The position numbers and the translations under genes were made by a program. Positions 41,691 through 54,398 of a DNA stretch of 64,000 nucleotides are shown here, piece after piece. The stretch is taken from positions 124,001-188,000 of the forward strand of contig NZ_JAJSEE010000001.1 in NCBI RefSeq assembly GCF_023555375.1, written 5' to 3'. The stretch comes from Guyparkeria hydrothermalis. Its GTDB lineage: Bacteria > Pseudomonadota > Gammaproteobacteria > Halothiobacillales > Halothiobacillaceae. The notes beneath the pieces are model-generated. The model searched no databases. It saw only the letters and a program-made list of their open reading frames with translations, and was not told where the DNA came from. The stretch's first letter is position 1, and each line of letters begins with the position of its first letter.

Positions 41691-41995
41691 TCCGGCCTCG
41701 GCACGGCGGCCGTTGTCGTTGAGTCAGCGTCTGGGTCAGCTCAGGCGAGTGAAGAACGGCCGCGCGGCCCGGCCACTTCGCACGCCACAGGCCCGGGGAA
41801 AACCGGTTTTCCGTGTTGGCGGGCACGTCATCTCCAGCCATCGCGATTCCGGGGCTTGCCCCGAAGACGACTACATTTAGGCACCCGTCGCGGCCGTGTC
41901 AGCCGCAGGCGCAAGGGCGATCGAGACCGATGGCCTGCCCCGGGGCGCTGGTGTATGTTCGATGGCATTGCAGGCGTCGACAGGGAGCCACGGCG
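41691..41995. other. 305-bp intergenic region after the oxidase operon
   Basis: I see no gene and no clear terminator; there are only short GC-rich palindromes. The frame of the HerA-like gene stays open upstream to 41813 without a better start. Confidence 0.4.
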
Positions 41996-43456
41996 ATGAG
42001 CGAACACGTACTGGTAGGCGGGGCCGACGGTCACGCCGTGAACCAACTGGGCCGGATGAGCAATCGTCACGGCCTGATCGCCGGGGCGACGGGCACCGGC
42101 AAGACCGTCAGCCTGCAGATCCTCGCCGAGAGCTTCTCCCGGCTGGGCGTGCCGGTCTTCGCCGCCGACATCAAGGGCGATCTTTCCGGACTGGCGGCCG
42201 CCGCCACGCCCCACCCCAAGGTGGACGAACGGGTCGAACGCATCCCGGTGCCGGACTACCGGGCCGAGGCCTCGCCGGTGCTGTTCTGGGACCTGTTCGG
42301 TGAGTCCGGCCATCCCATACGCACCACCGTCTCGGAAATGGGGCCGTTGCTGCTCGGCTCGCTGCTCGAACTCAACGACACCCAGGAGGGCGTTCTCTAC
42401 GCGGCCTTCCGCATCGCCGACGACGAGGGTCTTCTGCTGCTCGACCTCAAGGACCTGCGCTCGATGCTCAACTGGATGGGCGAGCATCGCAGCGAGCTCT
42501 CGCAGGAATACGGCAACCTGGCGCCGGCCAGCCTCGGGGCCATCCAGCGCCGCCTGCTGGTGCTCGAGGAACAAGGTGGCGACCATTTCTTCGGCGAGCC
42601 AGCCGTCGAACTCAAGGACCTGATGCGCACGGACTTTTCCGGGCGCGGCGTGATCAGCCTGCTGGACGCCACCCGCCTCTACCGCGAGTCGCCGCGGCTC
42701 TACAGCGCGTTTCTACTCTGGTTGCTGGCCGAGCTGTTCGAGGAATTGCCCGAGGCCGGTGACGCCGCACTACCCAAGCTGGTGTTCTTCTTCGACGAGG
42801 CCCACCTGCTGTTCGACCAGGCCACGCCGGCGCTGCTGGAGAAGATCGAGCAGGTGGTACGCCTGATCCGCTCCAAGGGCGTGGGCGTTTACTTTGTCAC
42901 GCAAAGCCCCACCGACGTGCCCGAGGCGGTACTGGGGCAACTCGGGCTCAAGCTCCAGCACGCCCTGCGCGCCTTCACGCCCAAGGACCGCAAGGCGATC
43001 CGGGCGGCGGCGCAGAACTTCCCGGCCAACCCGGGCCTCGACGTGGAGGCGACCCTGACCGACCTGGGCATCGGCGAGGCGCTGGTCTCGGTCCTGGATA
43101 CCAAGGGCCGACCGCAGGCGGTGCAACGCACCTTGATCGTGCCGCCCCGCTCGCGCATGGGGCCCCTGTCGGCCGCGGAACGCGCCGAGCTGCTGTCGCG
43201 CTCGCCACTGGCCGGGCAGTACGACACGGTCAATGACCGGGATTCGGCCTACGAGGAGCTGGCACGGCGCACCGAGGCACGCCAGAAGGCCCTGGACGAG
43301 CAGGCCGACGCCCAGCCGACGACCAAGGGGAAATCCACCTCCCGAGGCGACTCGGCCGGCGTAGCCTTCCTCAAGAGCGCCGCACGCAGCTTCGGCACCC
43401 AGCTCGGTCGGCACCTGGTGCGCGGCCTGCTCGGGGCGTTATCGGGCAAGCGCTGA
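41996..43456 (+). CDS. HerA-like ATPase, DUF853 family
   Basis: The 486-residue cytoplasmic protein has Walker A GATGTGKTV near residue 29, PVFAADIKGDLSGLA, DDEGLLLLDLKDLRSML, Walker B FFFDEAHLLFD (about 260-270), GVYFVTQSPTDVPE and arginine-finger-like ALRAFTPKDRKAI, all DUF853 (helicase HerA-like) features. The C-terminal 60 residues are low-complexity and basic. Role uncertain; the family is widespread in proteobacteria. GGGAG lies 10 nt before ATG 41996. Confidence 0.92.
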   Translation: MSEHVLVGGADGHAVNQLGRMSNRHGLIAGATGTGKTVSLQILAESFSRLGVPVFAADIKGDLSGLAAAATPHPKVDERVERIPVPDYRAEASPVLFWDLFGESGHPIRTTVSEMGPLLLGSLLELNDTQEGVLYAAFRIADDEGLLLLDLKDLRSMLNWMGEHRSELSQEYGNLAPASLGAIQRRLLVLEEQGGDHFFGEPAVELKDLMRTDFSGRGVISLLDATRLYRESPRLYSAFLLWLLAELFEELPEAGDAALPKLVFFFDEAHLLFDQATPALLEKIEQVVRLIRSKGVGVYFVTQSPTDVPEAVLGQLGLKLQHALRAFTPKDRKAIRAAAQNFPANPGLDVEATLTDLGIGEALVSVLDTKGRPQAVQRTLIVPPRSRMGPLSAAERAELLSRSPLAGQYDTVNDRDSAYEELARRTEARQKALDEQADAQPTTKGKSTSRGDSAGVAFLKSAARSFGTQLGRHLVRGLLGALSGKR

Positions 43457-47421: not shown

Positions 47422-48738
47422 TCAGTCATCGGATGCCGGCGGGGGTTCCGGTGCGGGCACGTGATGGACGCGTGCCGAGCCCAGGATGCGCATCAGCAGC
47501 TCCACCATCGTGGCCCACGCCATGCCCAGCGCCAGCCCCAACACGATGCCCGAGGGGGCGGACCAGCCCGCCACGAGGGTGGCCAGCGAGAGCGTAAAGA
47601 GCACGAAGGTGCCGATGCCGGCGTAGACCACCGCCGGCTGCCAATTCGACACTCGGAAGGTGAATGCCGTCGTCTGCACCAGGAGCGCGGCGGCCGCCGC
47701 GACCGGCACCGACGGGAATTCCGCGTTGGGGACCACGCCTTCGAGCACGAAGTGATCGAGGACATGGGCGCCACCGGCCGCACCGAGGACACCCACCCCG
47801 ATACGCAGCGCCGCCGCCCACCCGGCGCGCCAGCACACGAACGCCATCAACGGCATGACCACGACGAGGATGCCCGGCCACTGGAAGGCCCACAGCGCGC
47901 CGCGCGCAACCGCGACGGCCTCCTCGGTTTTCACCGCCCCCATCCATTCGAGGACCGGAAAATCGATCAGCGCCAGGCCCGCGACCGCCCGCGTCTGGCT
48001 GACCACGAGGCCGATCGCACCGGCGGCCATCAGCAGCACGAGGAAACCGAGGGTCAGGCTCAACCCCTGGGCCAGGCTCGGGTTGAAGCGGCGGCTGAGC
48101 CAGTAGAACCCCGGCGCCAGCCGGAGGACGACGCCCCGCGTGCCGGTGATCCGCAATGCCCACAGAAACGCCTGCTCCACGCGATAGCGGTTGGCCGCGA
48201 TGCGGGCGGCCGCCCAGCGGATGAGCAGGGCCGTGATGAACAGGATCAGCACCAGCAGCGCGGCGGTCCCGGTGACGTCCTGCAGCACCTTCCAGGACGC
48301 CCCCAGCACGACACCAAGCGTGAGGTAGGTGGCGGCCCAGATCAGGCTCGCCGGCACGTCGAACAGCAGGAAACGCCGGTAGGAGAGCTGCGACGCGCCG
48401 GCGAGAAACGGCACGATGATGCGGGTGGGCGTCGAGACCCGCCCCAGCACGATGGCCCACTCGCCCCGTCGCTGCATGAATTCCTGCACCCGCTGGATCG
48501 ACCGGCCGAAGTAACGCTCCAGCGGCGCCCAGTGCAGCATCCTCACACCCCAGCGACGGCCGACATAAAACCCGGTCGCATTCCCCAGCAGCGTCGCCGA
48601 CAGCACGACCCCGAGCAGCGGCCCCATCTCGACCTGCCCCCGAGAGGCGAGGATGCCGCCGATCACCACGGCCACCTCGCCGGGCGTGAAGAAACCGAGA
48701 AAGAACGCGGCCTCGGCCCAGCAGAGCACCCCAAGCAC
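47422..48738 (-). CDS. DedA-family membrane protein with extended C-terminal membrane domain
   Basis: The N-terminal 180 residues are DedA/SNARE-associated: EAAFFLGFFTPGEVAVVIGG, LLGNATGFYVGRRWG, GRVSTPTRIIVPFLAGASQLSYRRFLLFD. The C-terminal 240 residues form about six more helices, partly PAP2-like in layout (HVLDHFVLEGVVPN) but without a full phosphatase motif. The frame is open at least 25 codons upstream of GTG 48738, encoding DedA-like IDKLLQSALELSPLTIYVV, yet no ATG, GTG or TTG begins it; a CTG or ATC start is possible. DedA proteins act in envelope lipid transport. Confidence 0.82.
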   Translation of the reverse strand: MLGVLCWAEAAFFLGFFTPGEVAVVIGGILASRGQVEMGPLLGVVLSATLLGNATGFYVGRRWGVRMLHWAPLERYFGRSIQRVQEFMQRRGEWAIVLGRVSTPTRIIVPFLAGASQLSYRRFLLFDVPASLIWAATYLTLGVVLGASWKVLQDVTGTAALLVLILFITALLIRWAAARIAANRYRVEQAFLWALRITGTRGVVLRLAPGFYWLSRRFNPSLAQGLSLTLGFLVLLMAAGAIGLVVSQTRAVAGLALIDFPVLEWMGAVKTEEAVAVARGALWAFQWPGILVVVMPLMAFVCWRAGWAAALRIGVGVLGAAGGAHVLDHFVLEGVVPNAEFPSVPVAAAAALLVQTTAFTFRVSNWQPAVVYAGIGTFVLFTLSLATLVAGWSAPSGIVLGLALGMAWATMVELLMRILGSARVHHVPAPEPPPASDD

Positions 48739-49003: not shown

Positions 49004-49528
49004 TCACCGATCGACGGGCCCAGTCGCCCGAAACGCCTCATGAAAGCGGACGGTGCCGTGCGGGACAGGGCCGTCGAACGGCAGGACGAAGAAGACGTCG
49101 GGCGGGACGCCCTCGACCGCGAGATCGGATGGGTTCTTGAAGCCGAAGCGCGGGTAGTAGTCCGGATGGCCGACCAGGCAGCAACCCTGAGCATCGAGGG
49201 ATTGCAAGTGCGTCAGACCCTCGCGGATCAAGGCCGCCCCGATGCCCTGACGCTGATACGCCGGCAGGACCGAGACCGGTCCGAGGCCGTACCAGCCGGA
49301 CGTGCCGTCGGAGATCGTCACCGGGGAGAAGGCAATGTGACCGACGACCCGCCCGCCCCGTTCGGCGACCAGCGAGACGGTCAGCGCATCGACGGCGCGC
49401 AGGGCCTCGACGATGTACTGCTCGGTGTGCTCGCTGATCTCCACCGCGGCGAAGGCGGCCTGGGTGACCGCGGCGATCGCCTCGATATCAGCCGCGGTCT
49501 CGGGACGGATGGTGACCGGTGTGTTCAT
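49004..49528 (-). CDS. GNAT-family N-acetyltransferase
   Basis: The 174-residue protein has GNAT motifs: IRPETAADIEAIAAVTQAAFA, LGPVSVLPAYQRQGIGAALIREGL (acetyl-CoA loop, about 82-105) and CCLVGHPDYYPRFGFKNPS. It is a YhbS-like relative of the GNAT at 31805-32365. ATG 49528 begins 3 bp after the stop of a DUF815 gene fossil (49532) and has no good ribosome site of its own, so it was once coupled to that gene. Confidence 0.9.
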   Translation of the reverse strand: MNTPVTIRPETAADIEAIAAVTQAAFAAVEISEHTEQYIVEALRAVDALTVSLVAERGGRVVGHIAFSPVTISDGTSGWYGLGPVSVLPAYQRQGIGAALIREGLTHLQSLDAQGCCLVGHPDYYPRFGFKNPSDLAVEGVPPDVFFVLPFDGPVPHGTVRFHEAFRATGPVDR

Positions 49529-49531
49529 GGC

Positions 49532-49633
49532 TCAACCATAGGCGTTGAAGAGCTCGGATACGACGCGGTCGCTGCGCACGCCACGGGTCTGGGCGAACGT
49601 GAGCGCCTCGGCATGCAACTCGCCCCGACGATC
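49532..49633 (-). pseudogene. Fossil 3' end of a DUF815 ATPase gene
   Basis: Read on the minus strand this gives GELHAEALTFAQTRGVRSDR, then VVSELFNAYG and a stop, matching the C-terminus of the intact DUF815 protein (DELHAEAIKFAQTRGVRSGR then VARQFFNHWG). Upstream of about 49633 the similarity ends. It is a truncated paralog, not a fragment of the SGNH gene beside it. Confidence 0.82.
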
Positions 49634-49666
49634 CGACGATGGGGGGTCGGACCGAGCCAAGATGCC

Positions 49667-50254
49667 CTAACGGAACCACCAGCCCGGGTTGGCGCCGACC
49701 ACCGCCGCCAGGCGCTCATACCCACGGCTGTCCGGGTGGGCTCCGTCCCCCGCTCGCACCGCGATCCGGTAGACGGCATCATCGACCAGCGGGCCGAAGA
49801 GATCGATGAAGGTCACGCCGCGTTCCCCGCACCGCTCGGCAAAGGCATCCGACAGGTGGCCGATCCGCCCATTATGGCCGTCATCGTCGACCGGTGGCGG
49901 CCCCACGAACAGGCAGGGATAGCGGCTCGCGAACGCGAGCATCGCATCAAGATTCGTGACCGACTCCTCGAACGGCACGCGCGTCTCTCCGCCTTCCCAC
50001 GTAGTGTCATTGACCCCGCAGGACAGGACGATGCGCCCATCACACTGGGGAGGCAGCCTGGGCGCGCACTCGGCCTCCAGCCGCCGCCACAAATCACGAC
50101 TGGTATCCCGGCGCACGCCGAGGTTGTAACTGGTCACGGGAACGCCCTGGCCGTGGGCATCACGACATAGCCGCCCGACCCAGCCCAGCACCGACTCGTC
50201 GCCGGTGCCGTTGACCAAGGAATCGCCCACGTAGCAAATACGGATATCGCTCAC
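49667..50254 (-). CDS. SGNH/GDSL hydrolase
   Basis: The 195-residue protein has ICYVGDSLVNGTGD (Ser block), SYNLGVRRDTSRD (Gly), VLSCGVNDTTWEGG (Asn) and AVRAGDGAHPDSRGY (Asp/His), a complete SGNH set. No signal peptide. The start is GTG 50254, 8 bp after the DUF815 stop, so it is coupled to the ATPase gene. Substrate unknown. Confidence 0.88.
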   Translation of the reverse strand: MSDIRICYVGDSLVNGTGDESVLGWVGRLCRDAHGQGVPVTSYNLGVRRDTSRDLWRRLEAECAPRLPPQCDGRIVLSCGVNDTTWEGGETRVPFEESVTNLDAMLAFASRYPCLFVGPPPVDDDGHNGRIGHLSDAFAERCGERGVTFIDLFGPLVDDAVYRIAVRAGDGAHPDSRGYERLAAVVGANPGWWFR

Positions 50255-50261
50255 TCGCCGT

Positions 50262-51020
50262 TCAACCCCAGTGATTGAAGAACTGCCGCGCGACCCGGCC
50301 GCTGCGCACGCCGCGGGTCTGGGCGAACTTGATGGCTTCCGCGTGCAGCTCGTCGCGGTCGCCTGTCCAGTCGCGGAAGTAGAAGTCGACGATCTCCAGG
50401 TACTCCGGCTGGCTGATCGGGTAGAACGACAGCCACAGGCCGAACCGGTCGGAGAGCGAGATCTTCTCCTCGACGGCATCGGTGTGGTGCAGCTCGGTGT
50501 CGACCACCCGCGCCCCGTCGTTGTCGCTCGCCTGCTCGGGCAACAGGTGCCGGCGGTTGGAGCTGGCATAGACCACCACGTTCTCCGGCGGCAGCTCCAG
50601 CGAACCCTCCAGCACGCGCTTGAGACCCTTATAGCGGGAATCACCCTGCTCGAAGGAGAGGTCGTCGCAGAAGATGACGAAGCGCTGCGGCAGGTCCAGC
50701 AGCGGGTCGATGATCTCCGGCAGATCACCCAGGTCATCGGCGTCCACCTCGATCATCCGCAGGCCCTGCTCGCCGTAAGCATTGAGCATCGCCTTGATCA
50801 GCGACGACTTGCCCGTCCCGCGCGACCCCCACAGCAGCGCATTGTTCGCGCCGCGACCGTGAAGAAAGCGCCGGGTGTTCTCTAACAGCGCGCCCTTCTG
50901 GCGCTCGACACCCAGCAACTGCTCGGGGACGACCGGATCGACCCGGTGCACCGGGCGCAGTCGTTGCGAACCGGCGCGCCAGATGGCCGCGTGGGTGTTA
51001 TGCCAATCAATATCCGACAT
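50262..51020 (-). CDS. DUF815 AAA-type ATPase (intact copy)
   Basis: The 252-residue protein is a complete DUF815 ATPase: LLGVERQKGALLENTRRFLHG, Walker A LLWGSRGTGKSSLIKAML (about 63-80), RMIEVDADDLGDLPEI, Walker B RFVIFCDDLSFEQGD, VVVYASSNRRHLLP and the C-terminal FAQTRGVRSGRVARQFFNHW. The role of DUF815 is unknown; structure recalls replication-clamp-loader ATPases. Two damaged copies flank it (49532-49633 and 52090-52159). Confidence 0.93.
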   Translation of the reverse strand: MSDIDWHNTHAAIWRAGSQRLRPVHRVDPVVPEQLLGVERQKGALLENTRRFLHGRGANNALLWGSRGTGKSSLIKAMLNAYGEQGLRMIEVDADDLGDLPEIIDPLLDLPQRFVIFCDDLSFEQGDSRYKGLKRVLEGSLELPPENVVVYASSNRRHLLPEQASDNDGARVVDTELHHTDAVEEKISLSDRFGLWLSFYPISQPEYLEIVDFYFRDWTGDRDELHAEAIKFAQTRGVRSGRVARQFFNHWG

Positions 51021-51110
51021 CAGCTACCAGGATCGGTGGGAGTGAGACCTGAAATATACATGGCATGGAACCCTCGAGCCGAGAGCCCCCTTCGCCTTGC
51101 CGAGCGGCCG
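51007..51110. repeat. Direct repeat, copy 1, spanning the DUF815 start and upstream region
   Basis: About 100 bp (ATATCCGACATCAGCTACCA...GCCTTGCCGAGCGGCCGG) is repeated with about 20-25% mismatches at 52148-52250. It includes the first codons and promoter region of DUF815. Each copy precedes a DUF815 coding sequence, intact here and remnant in copy 2. Confidence 0.8.
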
Positions 51111-51132
51111 GCTAAAGCCCCTCGTCGTGCAC

Positions 51133-52032
51133 TTATTCCCCTCGGCGGATCACGCTGTTGATCGCGACCGACCGGCCACCGAATCGAAGCCCGATCTCCC
51201 TGCCGTTCTCGCTCGCACTGATGTGGAGGTGCGGTTCGAGGCTGTTTCCCGAGTTGCCGACTTCGGCCAACGGTTGCCCCGCCGTAACGACCTCCCCTGG
51301 CGCCACTCTGATGCTGCCTTGCTTCAAGTGGGCCATGAAGATATCCGCCTCATCACACCGCACTACGACATAGTTGCCCTCCGACTGCTCCGTGTCCGGG
51401 TGTCCCGGCGGGTTGTCCGGCAGACCGGCACGAACCCGGTCGATGGGCCCTTGGCATGGGCTATGGAGTCTCTCGCCGAAGATTTCGTAGGCGCTCAACG
51501 CACGCGGAGCAATACCGTCCGCGCGATTGCCAAACCGGTTGAGCTTGACGATGTCGACAGCCTTCCTGTCGCCACTCAGGGCGTGGAAGGGGTTGGTGAC
51601 GGCACTGCCCCCGCCCTGGAGCACGTAATAAGTGCCGGAGCCGAGCGGGAAATCGACATCAAGGGTCTCGCCCGAGGGATAATACGACGCGATCGCCAGA
51701 GCGTTGAGCACCGAGAACAGGAGAAATACCGACGCACGCAGGACCGTGATCCCGCCGACGCGAGCCCGGCCATGAGGGCTGCCGTGCCATATCCGGAAGA
51801 ACAGGAACACCGCGACAACGGCGAACAACCCAGGAAAAACGTACCGCAGGTAATAGCTTGTGAAGGCCCAGCTGCCCGCGAGGAAGGCGAAGGCCATGAT
51901 GCTGCCACTGGTCAACACCAGCACTGCCCAATCGAGCCGATCCCGGCGCCCACGGCTAATCAGCCAAACAAGAGCGGCCCCCGAAAGGAGCAATGGGTAA
52001 GCCGCGAACGCAATAGGAAGACTTTCACTCAC
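51133..52032 (-). CDS. M23-family peptidase with N-terminal membrane helices
   Basis: The protein (299 residues from GTG 52032; ATG 52119 would overlap the DUF815 fossil) has about four transmembrane helices in its first 130 residues, then a periplasmic LytM-like domain: HALSGDRKAVDIVKL, LHSPCQGPI, GNYVVVRCDEADIFMAHLKQ, VTAGQPLAEVGNSGNSLEPHLHIS. HLH and the upstream His/Asp fit zinc binding, though the first motif is degenerate. A murein-hydrolase or regulator role is inferred. Start uncertain. Confidence 0.78.
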   Translation of the reverse strand: MSESLPIAFAAYPLLLSGAALVWLISRGRRDRLDWAVLVLTSGSIMAFAFLAGSWAFTSYYLRYVFPGLFAVVAVFLFFRIWHGSPHGRARVGGITVLRASVFLLFSVLNALAIASYYPSGETLDVDFPLGSGTYYVLQGGGSAVTNPFHALSGDRKAVDIVKLNRFGNRADGIAPRALSAYEIFGERLHSPCQGPIDRVRAGLPDNPPGHPDTEQSEGNYVVVRCDEADIFMAHLKQGSIRVAPGEVVTAGQPLAEVGNSGNSLEPHLHISASENGREIGLRFGGRSVAINSVIRRGE

Positions 52033-52089
52033 AGCGCTGATCCAGAAGTGCACAACGGTGTGGTGAAAGGCAACTGGAGCAACGAGTAG

Positions 52090-52159
52090 GTGTCCCGCGC
52101 GAGCCCCACAGCAGTGCATCGTTCGCTGCGCGGATGTTCTTCCAAACAATATCTGACAT
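52090..52159 (-). pseudogene. Fossil 5' end of a DUF815 ATPase gene with internal deletion
   Basis: On the minus strand this reads MSDIVWKNIRAAN directly joined to DALLWGSRGT. The intact gene has MSDIDWHNTHAA at its start and NNALLWGSRGTGKSS near residue 60, so about 45 codons are deleted and everything past Walker A is replaced by the M23 gene. It sits downstream of the second copy of the promoter repeat. Confidence 0.82.
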
Positions 52160-52250
52160 CAGCTACCAAGAACGGTGGAACTCACAGCTTAAATATACAT
52201 GGCAGGGAGTCATCGGGCGGGGAAGTCCCCTTCGCCTTGCCGAGCGGCCG
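52148..52250. repeat. Direct repeat, copy 2, upstream of the DUF815 fossil
   Basis: Matches 51007-51110: shared blocks are GACATCAGCTACCA, AAATATACATGGCA and CCCCTTCGCCTTGCCGAGCG. It gives the fossil, and now the M23 gene, the promoter region of DUF815. Confidence 0.8.
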
Positions 52251-52430
52251 GGGTGCCGCAGGGTCGGGGCGGCATGGACGCCGCCCCGAGGTTCGCCGCG
52301 ACAGGACGTCGCGTCGAACCGACCCGTCCGCGGTACCCCGGACGGGAGGGAAGCCCGCAGGGCCAAGGCGAGGGGTGCCCTTCTCTTTGGGCACTTTCTC
52401 TTGGGCAAGCAAGAGAAAGTGCCTCGCGCG
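52251..52430. repeat. GC-rich multi-hairpin element
   Basis: A series of stem-loops: CGGGGCGGC-N6-GCCGCCCCG near 52266, a GTTCGCCGCGAC/GTCGCG..GAAC stem near 52300, CCGTCCG-N-CGGACGG near 52328, and a perfect 13-bp stem GCACTTTCTCTTG / CAAGAGAAAGTGC at 52391-52422. The last stem with its GGCAAG loop resembles a family of dispersed repeats I know from gammaproteobacteria. The remaining sequence to 52565 holds no gene. Confidence 0.55.
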
Positions 52431-52565
52431 CTGAGCACTGCACAGCAGAGAAATCGCTTCACGTAAGAGCGTGCGAAGAAGAGCCCATCACGCTAAAGGG
52501 TTCTCACCCCTTTTTCGCGGTTAAGGGCGTGCGCCCCCAAGTAACCCCTTCCACCTGAAGACAGG

Positions 52566-54398
52566 CTATCCGTTTCCACCCGACGGCACCCCATGATTTT
52601 TCAAGAGTTTATGAACAAACCATAGAAAAGCGCCAATCATATTCAAAAGAATACCCGCTACAAAAATCTTCGTTTCTCCCCCCATGCGTTCCCACCACGT
52701 CTCATTGAGCCTTACTCCTTCCATATAGACGATATCGACGGTGCCATTATATTTGATCTCGTCGGCGCTCAAGGGTCGAAAAGAGGAGCGCGCGCCACGA
52801 AGCTCCATAGCCGCACCTGATTCCAACTCATGAGTTTCGCCTTCAATTCGGACTTCTTGACTATCAAGGGCTCCAATTTGCGCAAACTCTATATGCGCCA
52901 CATTGCGCGGCACGCTAACAGAATCGTAATCCGGAATAACAAGCCAACCGCCTCCTCCATACACATTCAAGGTATTATCTTCACTGATTTTTAAAAACGA
53001 GAACTCATCTTTTCTAACGAGCTGAAAAAGAACACCCGACATGGCAACCTCGGTGTCCACTTCAAAATTGCCTTCACCCAGATCATCAAGACCCGCCATC
53101 CGACAATCGAGCTTGGAGTCTGCTCTTGAAAAAGGCACAGGGTTAAAGCTTATTCGGCGCTCCTCCCCATCCACTTCGATCACAAGGTCACGAACCGCGG
53201 GCACCATACCAGAGGAATCATAATCAACCATTATCGACGACATAAATGCTGACATATCACTCGATGCTGTCCAATAACGCAACGCGCCGCCAGTAATAAA
53301 AAGCGAAGCTTTTGTGCGACCATCTTCACTTTCGTCAAACCGTAACATCCGAATATTTTCTTTTGTATCAAGGCCAAATTTATCATCATCTTCCGACACC
53401 ACCCCTAGAGTTAAATCCGAACCCCCAGAGAGATATTGAGCGGAAAAATTCTGCACGTCAGGAAATACCCAATAAGGCCTGTCTCCTTCGGAGATTTCAA
53501 GCTGATCTAAGTCCTGATGGCACTCGACTGGAAAGTAAACCTGAAGGTCCCAGGTTGACTCAGGGACATCTTTGCGCCATTCCAAAGAATGAACACTTTT
53601 GGGACTGAGCCACCTGACCCTGTCTGACTCGAATTCTTTTTTAGAAAAAATTAGTGAATTCGACGTGGGACCAAATGAAGAGTCATCCGCTTTTTCGTCG
53701 AAACCATCTTGAAGAACATACGTAATATAAAACTCTCCCTTAAGGCTTCCCTCGATATACACAGGCTGAACGTAAAAAAGGAGCCAAACAGCAATGTAGA
53801 CAAACACATTAAAGACAAACCCAGAAACAACTGGGGCCATCACCTCTATACTCCGCCTAACGCGAAATGATAAGTGGCGCTGACCCACCGCCATTTCACC
53901 AAGATGCTTCAAGATAACAACAAAACCGGCCACAAAAACCGATCCAAATAGTGACAAAACAAGAAGGATCCACAAAATGTCTAGTGATAAGCCGTCAGAT
54001 ATCGCCTGATATACCGCCCCAACCGCAACCTGAATAACAAAGTTTAGAGAAAAAGAGACGGCAAAAACGAATCTATAAGAAACAGCGTTAAAAGCCGCAA
54101 ATATCAACACAAAAGCCAACGCCAACGAATACCAGACAAATGACGCGCTCAGCCAATCACCTAATCCGGATACTGGCGTCACTAACATTCGACTGACGGA
54201 CTCAGGAGACGGGAGGAAGAACTGGGAAATATATATATAAACAACGGGTCCGGTGCCAATCACTAATGAAAGGCCAACAACATTAGCCAAAAAGACAGAG
54301 GCAGGACCGGAGGTTTCTCGCATCGTCACTCTTTGTTTTCTCATTTTATATAAAATTGAAATAACAATCAGACTCAATAAAGCAATAATAATTAACAT
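52566..54398 (-). CDS. AT-rich orphan membrane protein
   Basis: The 610-residue protein is not recognised. Base composition is far lower in GC than all neighbours and codons such as TTT, AAA and ATA are frequent, pointing to transfer. It has an N-terminal helix, about five to six further helices up to residue 215 (LSLVIGTGPVVYIYISQFFL, LALAFVLIFAAFNAVS, LDILWILLVLSLFGSVFVAG, FNVFVYIAVWLLFYV), a large hydrophilic and beta-rich domain (about 220-575), and one last helix near the C-terminus. GAGGGA lies 5 nt before ATG 54398. It sits between the lysS terminator and the hairpin element. Confidence 0.75.
   Translation of the reverse strand: MLIIIALLSLIVISILYKMRKQRVTMRETSGPASVFLANVVGLSLVIGTGPVVYIYISQFFLPSPESVSRMLVTPVSGLGDWLSASFVWYSLALAFVLIFAAFNAVSYRFVFAVSFSLNFVIQVAVGAVYQAISDGLSLDILWILLVLSLFGSVFVAGFVVILKHLGEMAVGQRHLSFRVRRSIEVMAPVVSGFVFNVFVYIAVWLLFYVQPVYIEGSLKGEFYITYVLQDGFDEKADDSSFGPTSNSLIFSKKEFESDRVRWLSPKSVHSLEWRKDVPESTWDLQVYFPVECHQDLDQLEISEGDRPYWVFPDVQNFSAQYLSGGSDLTLGVVSEDDDKFGLDTKENIRMLRFDESEDGRTKASLFITGGALRYWTASSDMSAFMSSIMVDYDSSGMVPAVRDLVIEVDGEERRISFNPVPFSRADSKLDCRMAGLDDLGEGNFEVDTEVAMSGVLFQLVRKDEFSFLKISEDNTLNVYGGGGWLVIPDYDSVSVPRNVAHIEFAQIGALDSQEVRIEGETHELESGAAMELRGARSSFRPLSADEIKYNGTVDIVYMEGVRLNETWWERMGGETKIFVAGILLNMIGAFLWFVHKLLKNHGVPSGGNG

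Follow-up and report, generated by a model that had tools for sequence, protein, structure and literature searches.

Displaced ends of a DUF815 ATPase gene between lysS and the oxidase genes of Guyparkeria

Hotspots without mobile elements have been described in which DNA is exchanged by recombination at the flanking core genes (Oliveira et al., 2017, PMC5635113). The joining of incoming DNA by homology at one end and illegitimately at the other is likewise a described process (PMC3240628), and REP elements with RAYT (Y1/IS200-like) transposases occur in more than 100 copies per genome (Nunvar et al., 2010, PMC2817692). We analyzed a window of 64,000 nucleotides of Guyparkeria hydrothermalis (the whole stretch of DNA considered here, positions 124,001 to 188,000 of contig NZ_JAJSEE010000001.1), and all coordinates below are those of the window. 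Guyparkeria is a salt-loving sulfur bacterium. Between lysS and the oxidase/haem genes, gene content and order differ among Guyparkeria genomes, and the interval from lysS to the cytochrome oxidase/haem genes is a gene-turnover hotspot, which clearly exemplifies a type of region already known.

By analogy, the locus resembles the hotspots of Oliveira et al. (PMC5635113) in being bounded by core genes, turning over fast, lacking an integrase (no PF00589 match was found within about 70 kb of the locus in genomes G000 or G005, though a RAYT-like gene or fragments of one are present in G007 and G009) and having a mosaic ancestry as far as single-gene trees suggest; unlike in those hotspots, remnants of one resident gene, DUF815, mark the successive junctions. 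It also carries what homology-facilitated illegitimate recombination predicts, namely a displaced gene tail beyond the insert (PMC3240628); this link too is by analogy and, unlike in that system, the process is read here from footprints only. As with REP/RAYT elements (PMC2817692), the Guyparkeria palindromes have Y1 transposase genes nearby in their own genomes and fragments occur at tail junctions, but the copies per genome are few, against more than 100 there. Displaced gene ends provide a readable record of neighbour replacement where no mobile element is left and, with one gene tail at several different junctions in 11 genomes, the locus could be used to measure hotspot turnover and could show whether REP/RAYT remnants or plain homology fix the breakpoints.

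The intact gene, its relics and its neighbours

The DUF815 AAA+ ATPase gene of the window (50262..51020, minus strand, as are all features located below) is intact, and its protein of 252 aa is a full-length member of PF05673 (E 1.2e-98; 329.7 bits against a gathering score of 23.8; profile positions 2-245 of 249). A whole-genome search found it to be the single DUF815 gene of the genome; a close relative is that of Guyparkeria sp. WRN-7 (96%). Differences at the three codon positions (14/5/45 with G004, 13/6/49 with G005 and 8/8/46 with G010) fall mostly at the third, so the intact gene is under purifying selection. In the literature we found only two passing mentions of DUF815, and we took the PADLOC matches of the protein (19 and 16 bits) to reflect generic AAA+ similarity. 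The region upstream of the gene (51021..51111) is 90% identical to that of G004 and is repeated, at 78-96%, at 52160-52251. As no match to the sigma-70 consensus occurs in it, we call it a presumed promoter from its position alone. The "promoter repeat" of the preliminary description is real as a repeat, but its outermost ~25 bp are the end of a separate dispersed element of ~260 bp that has 26 matches in the window genome.

The minus strand reads lysS, a 610-aa gene with no Pfam match, the ~260-bp element, a 5' relic of DUF815, an M23 gene, the upstream region 51111-51021 and the intact DUF815 gene, and continues with an SGNH gene, a 3' relic of DUF815, a GNAT gene and a VTT gene. The M23 peptidase-domain membrane protein (51133..52032; PF01551, E 5.3e-10) has 299 aa from the GTG at 52032, probably its start judging from the ATG in two relatives; its orthologues, of 303 aa and about 80% identity, were found in the same order in G004 and G005 only. 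The SGNH/GDSL hydrolase gene (49667..50254; PF13472, E 9.2e-21) begins with the GTG at 50254, 8 bp past the DUF815 stop, and was not found in G004 and G005. The GNAT acetyltransferase gene (49004..49528; PF13508 and relatives, E 4e-10), closest to that of G007 (82%), begins 3 nt past the stop of the 3' relic, and the next gene encodes a VTT-domain membrane protein (47422..48738; PF09335, E 2.6e-15). Both spacings had been given correctly before, and Pfam bore out the identities proposed for DUF815, SGNH, GNAT and M23 (E 1e-98, 9e-21, 4e-10 and 5e-10).

A repeat search recovered the repeats and fossils where they had been placed. The upstream region with the start of DUF815 (50986-51084) matches 52125-52223 at 78%, a 28-nt upstream piece (51084-51111) matches 52224-52251 at 96%, an internal piece of the gene (50815-50855) matches 52092-52132 at 88%, and the 3' end of the gene (50262-50357) matches 49532-49627 at 75%. 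The 5' relic (52092..52251) accordingly comprises an upstream region and about codons 1-12 and 56-69, with an internal deletion between them; it extends up to the M23 gene and has the same position in G004 and G005. The 3' relic (49532..49627) holds the last 30 codons with the stop kept, directly before GNAT, and the same tail-GNAT junction is present in G007. Of the three DUF815 copies proposed earlier, then, the three sites are real, but there is one gene, and the other two are short relics. A genome-wide DNA search with the DUF815 3' end gave only the intact copy and the 49532-49627 tail; a more sensitive local search, in line with the earlier suggestion to look for additional fossils, added one 51-bp tail (41747..41797) that is 82% identical over its length, ends at the DUF815 stop, scores a z of about 12-15 against shuffles and is convergent with an SCO-type gene. 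At the matching place, G001 has a 28-bp match (2610-2637 of L121). A fragment of 21 bp between the 3' relic and the SGNH gene, GCATCTTGGCTCGGTCCGACC (49645..49665), recurs unchanged in G007, where it lies between a DUF815 tail and the Y1 (RAYT-like) transposase gene, and its 14-mer core was absent from the other loci that we compared.

Gene order on the two sides of DUF815 in 11 genomes

We compared the window genome with ten other Guyparkeria genomes. Four of them (G003, G006, G007 and G008) are incomplete, at 64-87%, so absences in these are soft. Intact DUF815 genes were found in the window genome, G004, G005 and, at a contig edge, G010; no match above the family cut-off was found in G007 (87% complete), and none of the 11 genomes has two intact copies. 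Directly after the intact gene lies SGNH in the window and G010, VTT in G004 and a convergent peptidase-like gene in G005. After DUF815 tails we found GNAT in the window and G007, VTT in G007, G002 and G001, SGNH in G009 and a NERD-domain gene in G008, where the tail measures 151 bp; other tails face convergent genes, beside the SCO-type gene in the window and G001 and, in G001, also elsewhere. G007 thus has two tails with different left ends, and G001 has three. In G002 a decayed tail probably precedes a GNAT gene about 18 kb away from the tail at VTT (z 6.1 for the best query and 3.0-5.0 for others, 3.0 being that of the window intact end), and no tail was detectable at the GNAT genes of G004, G005 (both) and G002 (the second). 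A 39-bit tail match on C251 of G010 lies inside another coding region, and we judged it to be due to chance. By genomes, the gene following a DUF815 stop or tail is SGNH in three, VTT in four, GNAT in two clearly and in one probably, and NERD in one.

The change of downstream gene put forward in the preliminary description is borne out by these differences in SGNH, VTT, GNAT, NERD and others between species, and the fixed gene order in relatives, named there as the finding that would speak against it, was not seen on the 3' side. The statement that each cargo follows a DUF815 end is right for SGNH and GNAT, but M23 follows a 5' relic instead. M23 does not appear to be an exchanged cargo either: the order 5' relic, M23, DUF815 is common to the window, G004 and G005 (in G005 with a NERD gene between M23 and DUF815), that is, to 3/3 genomes of the only well supported lysS clade, and since the order is fixed in this clade M23 gives no evidence for exchange within the sampled genus. 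The DUF815 stop codon is often where homology ends; in G005 homology resumes exactly at the DUF815 start codon. In single-gene trees the window lysS groups with G004/G005 (97/96), VTT goes with G010 and by path is nearest G001, and GNAT is nearest G007; the GNAT and SGNH trees do not resolve, and together the trees suggest a mosaic ancestry for the window.

In sister genera the neighbours of DUF815 are stable within a genus, with a flippase-like gene in L012-L014 and an RNA-binding protein in L015-L022 (named by eye). We rejected a constant operon partner of DUF815 as the cause, as in these genera the upstream gene is uup-like, coaBC-like or lysA-like and the downstream genes are unrelated (also by eye).

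REP palindromes, RAYT remnants and the origin of the relics

Allowing up to one mismatch, we counted 0-9 copies of the REP palindrome AGGGGTCAGAACCCTTT in each genome and 0 of the reversed control. The two copies of the whole G007 genome (at up to one mismatch) both abut its two DUF815 tails, and a Y1 (RAYT-like) gene (E 1.2e-8), flanked on both sides by GGTCCGACC motifs, lies just before the first tail and a fragment of it before the second. In G000 (C7) and G001 (C2), too, REPs are found beside Y1 transposase genes, and G009 has four RAYT fragments, one of them about 75 bp from its DUF815 tail. Neither REPs nor Y1 transposase were found in G004, G005 and G008, and G008 still has a tail. REP/RAYT remnants are therefore linked with several, not all, tail junctions, and no causal direction is implied.

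There is modest evidence that the 5' and 3' relics may be the two ends of one older DUF815 gene. One such gene suffices for the window, because its relics cover different, non-overlapping parts. The G002 remnant directly follows the same dispersed repeat and comprises the upstream region, 2-3 codons and a REP-like palindrome, after which come a 3' tail and VTT. With G002, the relics of the window, G004 and G005 have a stretch of the upstream region in common (CCCGATGACTCCCTGCCA in the case of the window), at which the intact genes have a different upstream sequence. Similarly, one state is common to 5/5 comparable tails and a second to 4/5, both being absent from 4/4 intact genes; though the sites are few, the shared upstream stretch and the tail states favour one older DUF815. 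The VTT-side tails of G001, G002 and G007 begin at one point, beside a REP, and we read this point as the junction of a single old insertion or deletion. At a length of 28-151 bp the tails resolve their own ancestry weakly, and the different left ends of the two G007 tails together with the three tails of G001 call for some tail duplication beyond one split gene.

Duplication of the DUF815 unit is possible, not needed. The process that had been proposed, repeated tandem duplication of the unit with a new downstream gene for each copy and subsequent loss of the redundant ATPase parts, would account for the presence in the window of both a second upstream region and a second 3' end and for the multiple tails of G007 and G001, and the end of the dispersed repeat is found on the second upstream copy too, as it would be in a copied block. 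We nevertheless regard it as unlikely, as no genome with two intact genes was seen, the non-overlapping relics can be the ends of one older gene, M23 is placed upstream of the intact gene and not after it, fixed in its clade, and the window tail differs from its own intact gene at 22/90 positions, more than the 6-8/90 by which intact genes differ between species over the same stretch. A rather improbable alternative is mobilization, by the Y1 (HUH) transposase or by its REPs, of units made up of a REP, a DUF815 tail and the following gene, the tails being cassette edges. A REP does stand at the left edge of the tails in G007 (both), G002 and G001, G002 has its probable REP-tail-GNAT unit, RAYT fragments lie beside tails in G007 and G009, and the 21-bp RAYT-flank fragment adjoins the window tail. 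Yet REPs are scarce, the G008 tail exists in a genome devoid of them and of Y1 transposase, no boundary was found on the far side of the cargo, and one old insertion into DUF815 explains the G001/G002/G007 junction. That a DUF815 3' end plus REP forms the leading edge of single-gene cassettes shuffled here by RAYT transposases or REP recombination seems to us slightly more doubtful still.

The immediate position of many tails before a start codon, as for GNAT in the window and G007, could mean that the tail is retained for a function, such as translational coupling or as a leader for the downstream gene; this is very unlikely, since the tail before GNAT in G007 ends with a frameshift, the tails near SCO in the window and G001 are convergent to their neighbour, and the differences of the window 3' relic are spread over the codon positions (6/6/10). 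Least probable of all, almost to the point of dismissal, is site-specific integration at the DUF815 3' end with the tail as a displaced attachment site: it would leave the layout DUF815, new gene, 3' tail, but the linked recombinase and constant att core of such systems were not found at the locus: no integrase match lay within about 70 kb in G000 or G005, tail length varies between 28 and 151 bp without a fixed core, and the inserts are single genes without mobility genes.

A proposed history of the locus

Most likely, the relics are scars of repeated gene replacement, not parts of a new machine. In the whole scenario that we prefer, with a probability of about 0.6, a REP/RAYT element was the site at which an old DUF815 was broken, recombination then restored a functional copy along with neighbours, and downstream genes have been replaced since. 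The older gene would have stood at the locus with VTT as its likeliest next gene (as seen at G004, G001, G002 and G007), and what survived its break and decay would be, on one side, the upstream region with the first codons and, on the other, the last ~30 codons. The lineage comprising the window, G004 and G005 may then have regained (or duplicated) a functional DUF815 at this spot, with M23 alongside; later, in the window lineage, SGNH would have come to follow DUF815 directly, and GNAT would have taken its place after the old tail, ahead of VTT. The engine could be ordinary recombination of incoming DNA from relatives, anchored at one end by homology to DUF815, lysS or the oxidase genes, with the other end joined illegitimately or by way of REP/RAYT remnants. 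A crossover that fell inside DUF815 would import DUF815 and a new neighbour, keeping the gene intact and leaving the old 3' tail beyond the newcomer, and would give the observed order DUF815, SGNH, tail, GNAT. The relics, the changing neighbours and the REP/RAYT sequence at several tail junctions are observed, whereas the sequence of events, the route of recombination and a supply of DNA by natural transformation are inferred; as to competence, a pangenome paper reports type IV pilus genes and nothing more (PMC9032823).

DUF815 does not appear to be special as a carrier of cargo, since the whole lysS-oxidase interval is scrambled and other genes leave fragments in it too, namely lysS, NERD, VTT, RAYT and a 452-aa gene; that DUF815 yields most of the fragments is partly because it was lost most often. 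A parallel is found in G005, in which lysS is followed by a 129-aa gene and then by a displaced lysS 3' tail.

The variable slot after lysS

The slot directly after lysS (52566-54398 in the window; matching slots in the Guyparkeria loci L061, L062, L117, L118, L119, L121 and L123) holds a different gene in each of these eight genomes, without a homologue in the loci of the others, and after the variable gene there is usually a copy of one shared ~260-bp repeat. Among these variable genes are candidate defence genes: the G009 gene encodes an FRG domain and matches PADLOC PDC-S15 (E 2e-101), that of G004 matches PADLOC PDC-S11 (E 2e-21), and that of G007 is a PIN_8 gene.

The dispersed ~260-bp element

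The element at 52196-52460 has 26 matches in the genome, and its copies often lie near one another as inverted pairs. For several of them Rfam gives a match to TwoAYGGAY (RF01731): the window segment 52259-52328 scores 54.7 bits, and RF01731 matches were also found in G004, G005 and other copies of the element.

Displaced tails, remnants and the right half

In G005, the final ~130 bp of lysS occur once more (L061:11781-11911) ~0.5 kb past the gene, with a 129-aa gene in between; this layout of gene, newcomer and displaced tail is that of DUF815 in the window. The DUF815 remnant of G002 (L119:8739-8939), upstream of the membrane-protein gene VTT, comprises the upstream region, the start-codon region, a REP-like palindrome and the 3' tail.

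The 547-aa gene adjoining the SCO-type gene (41813-43456) is 95% identical to its G001 counterpart, whereas the window lysS groups with those of G004 and G005, which suggests an exchange of the interval's right half with a G001-like relative.
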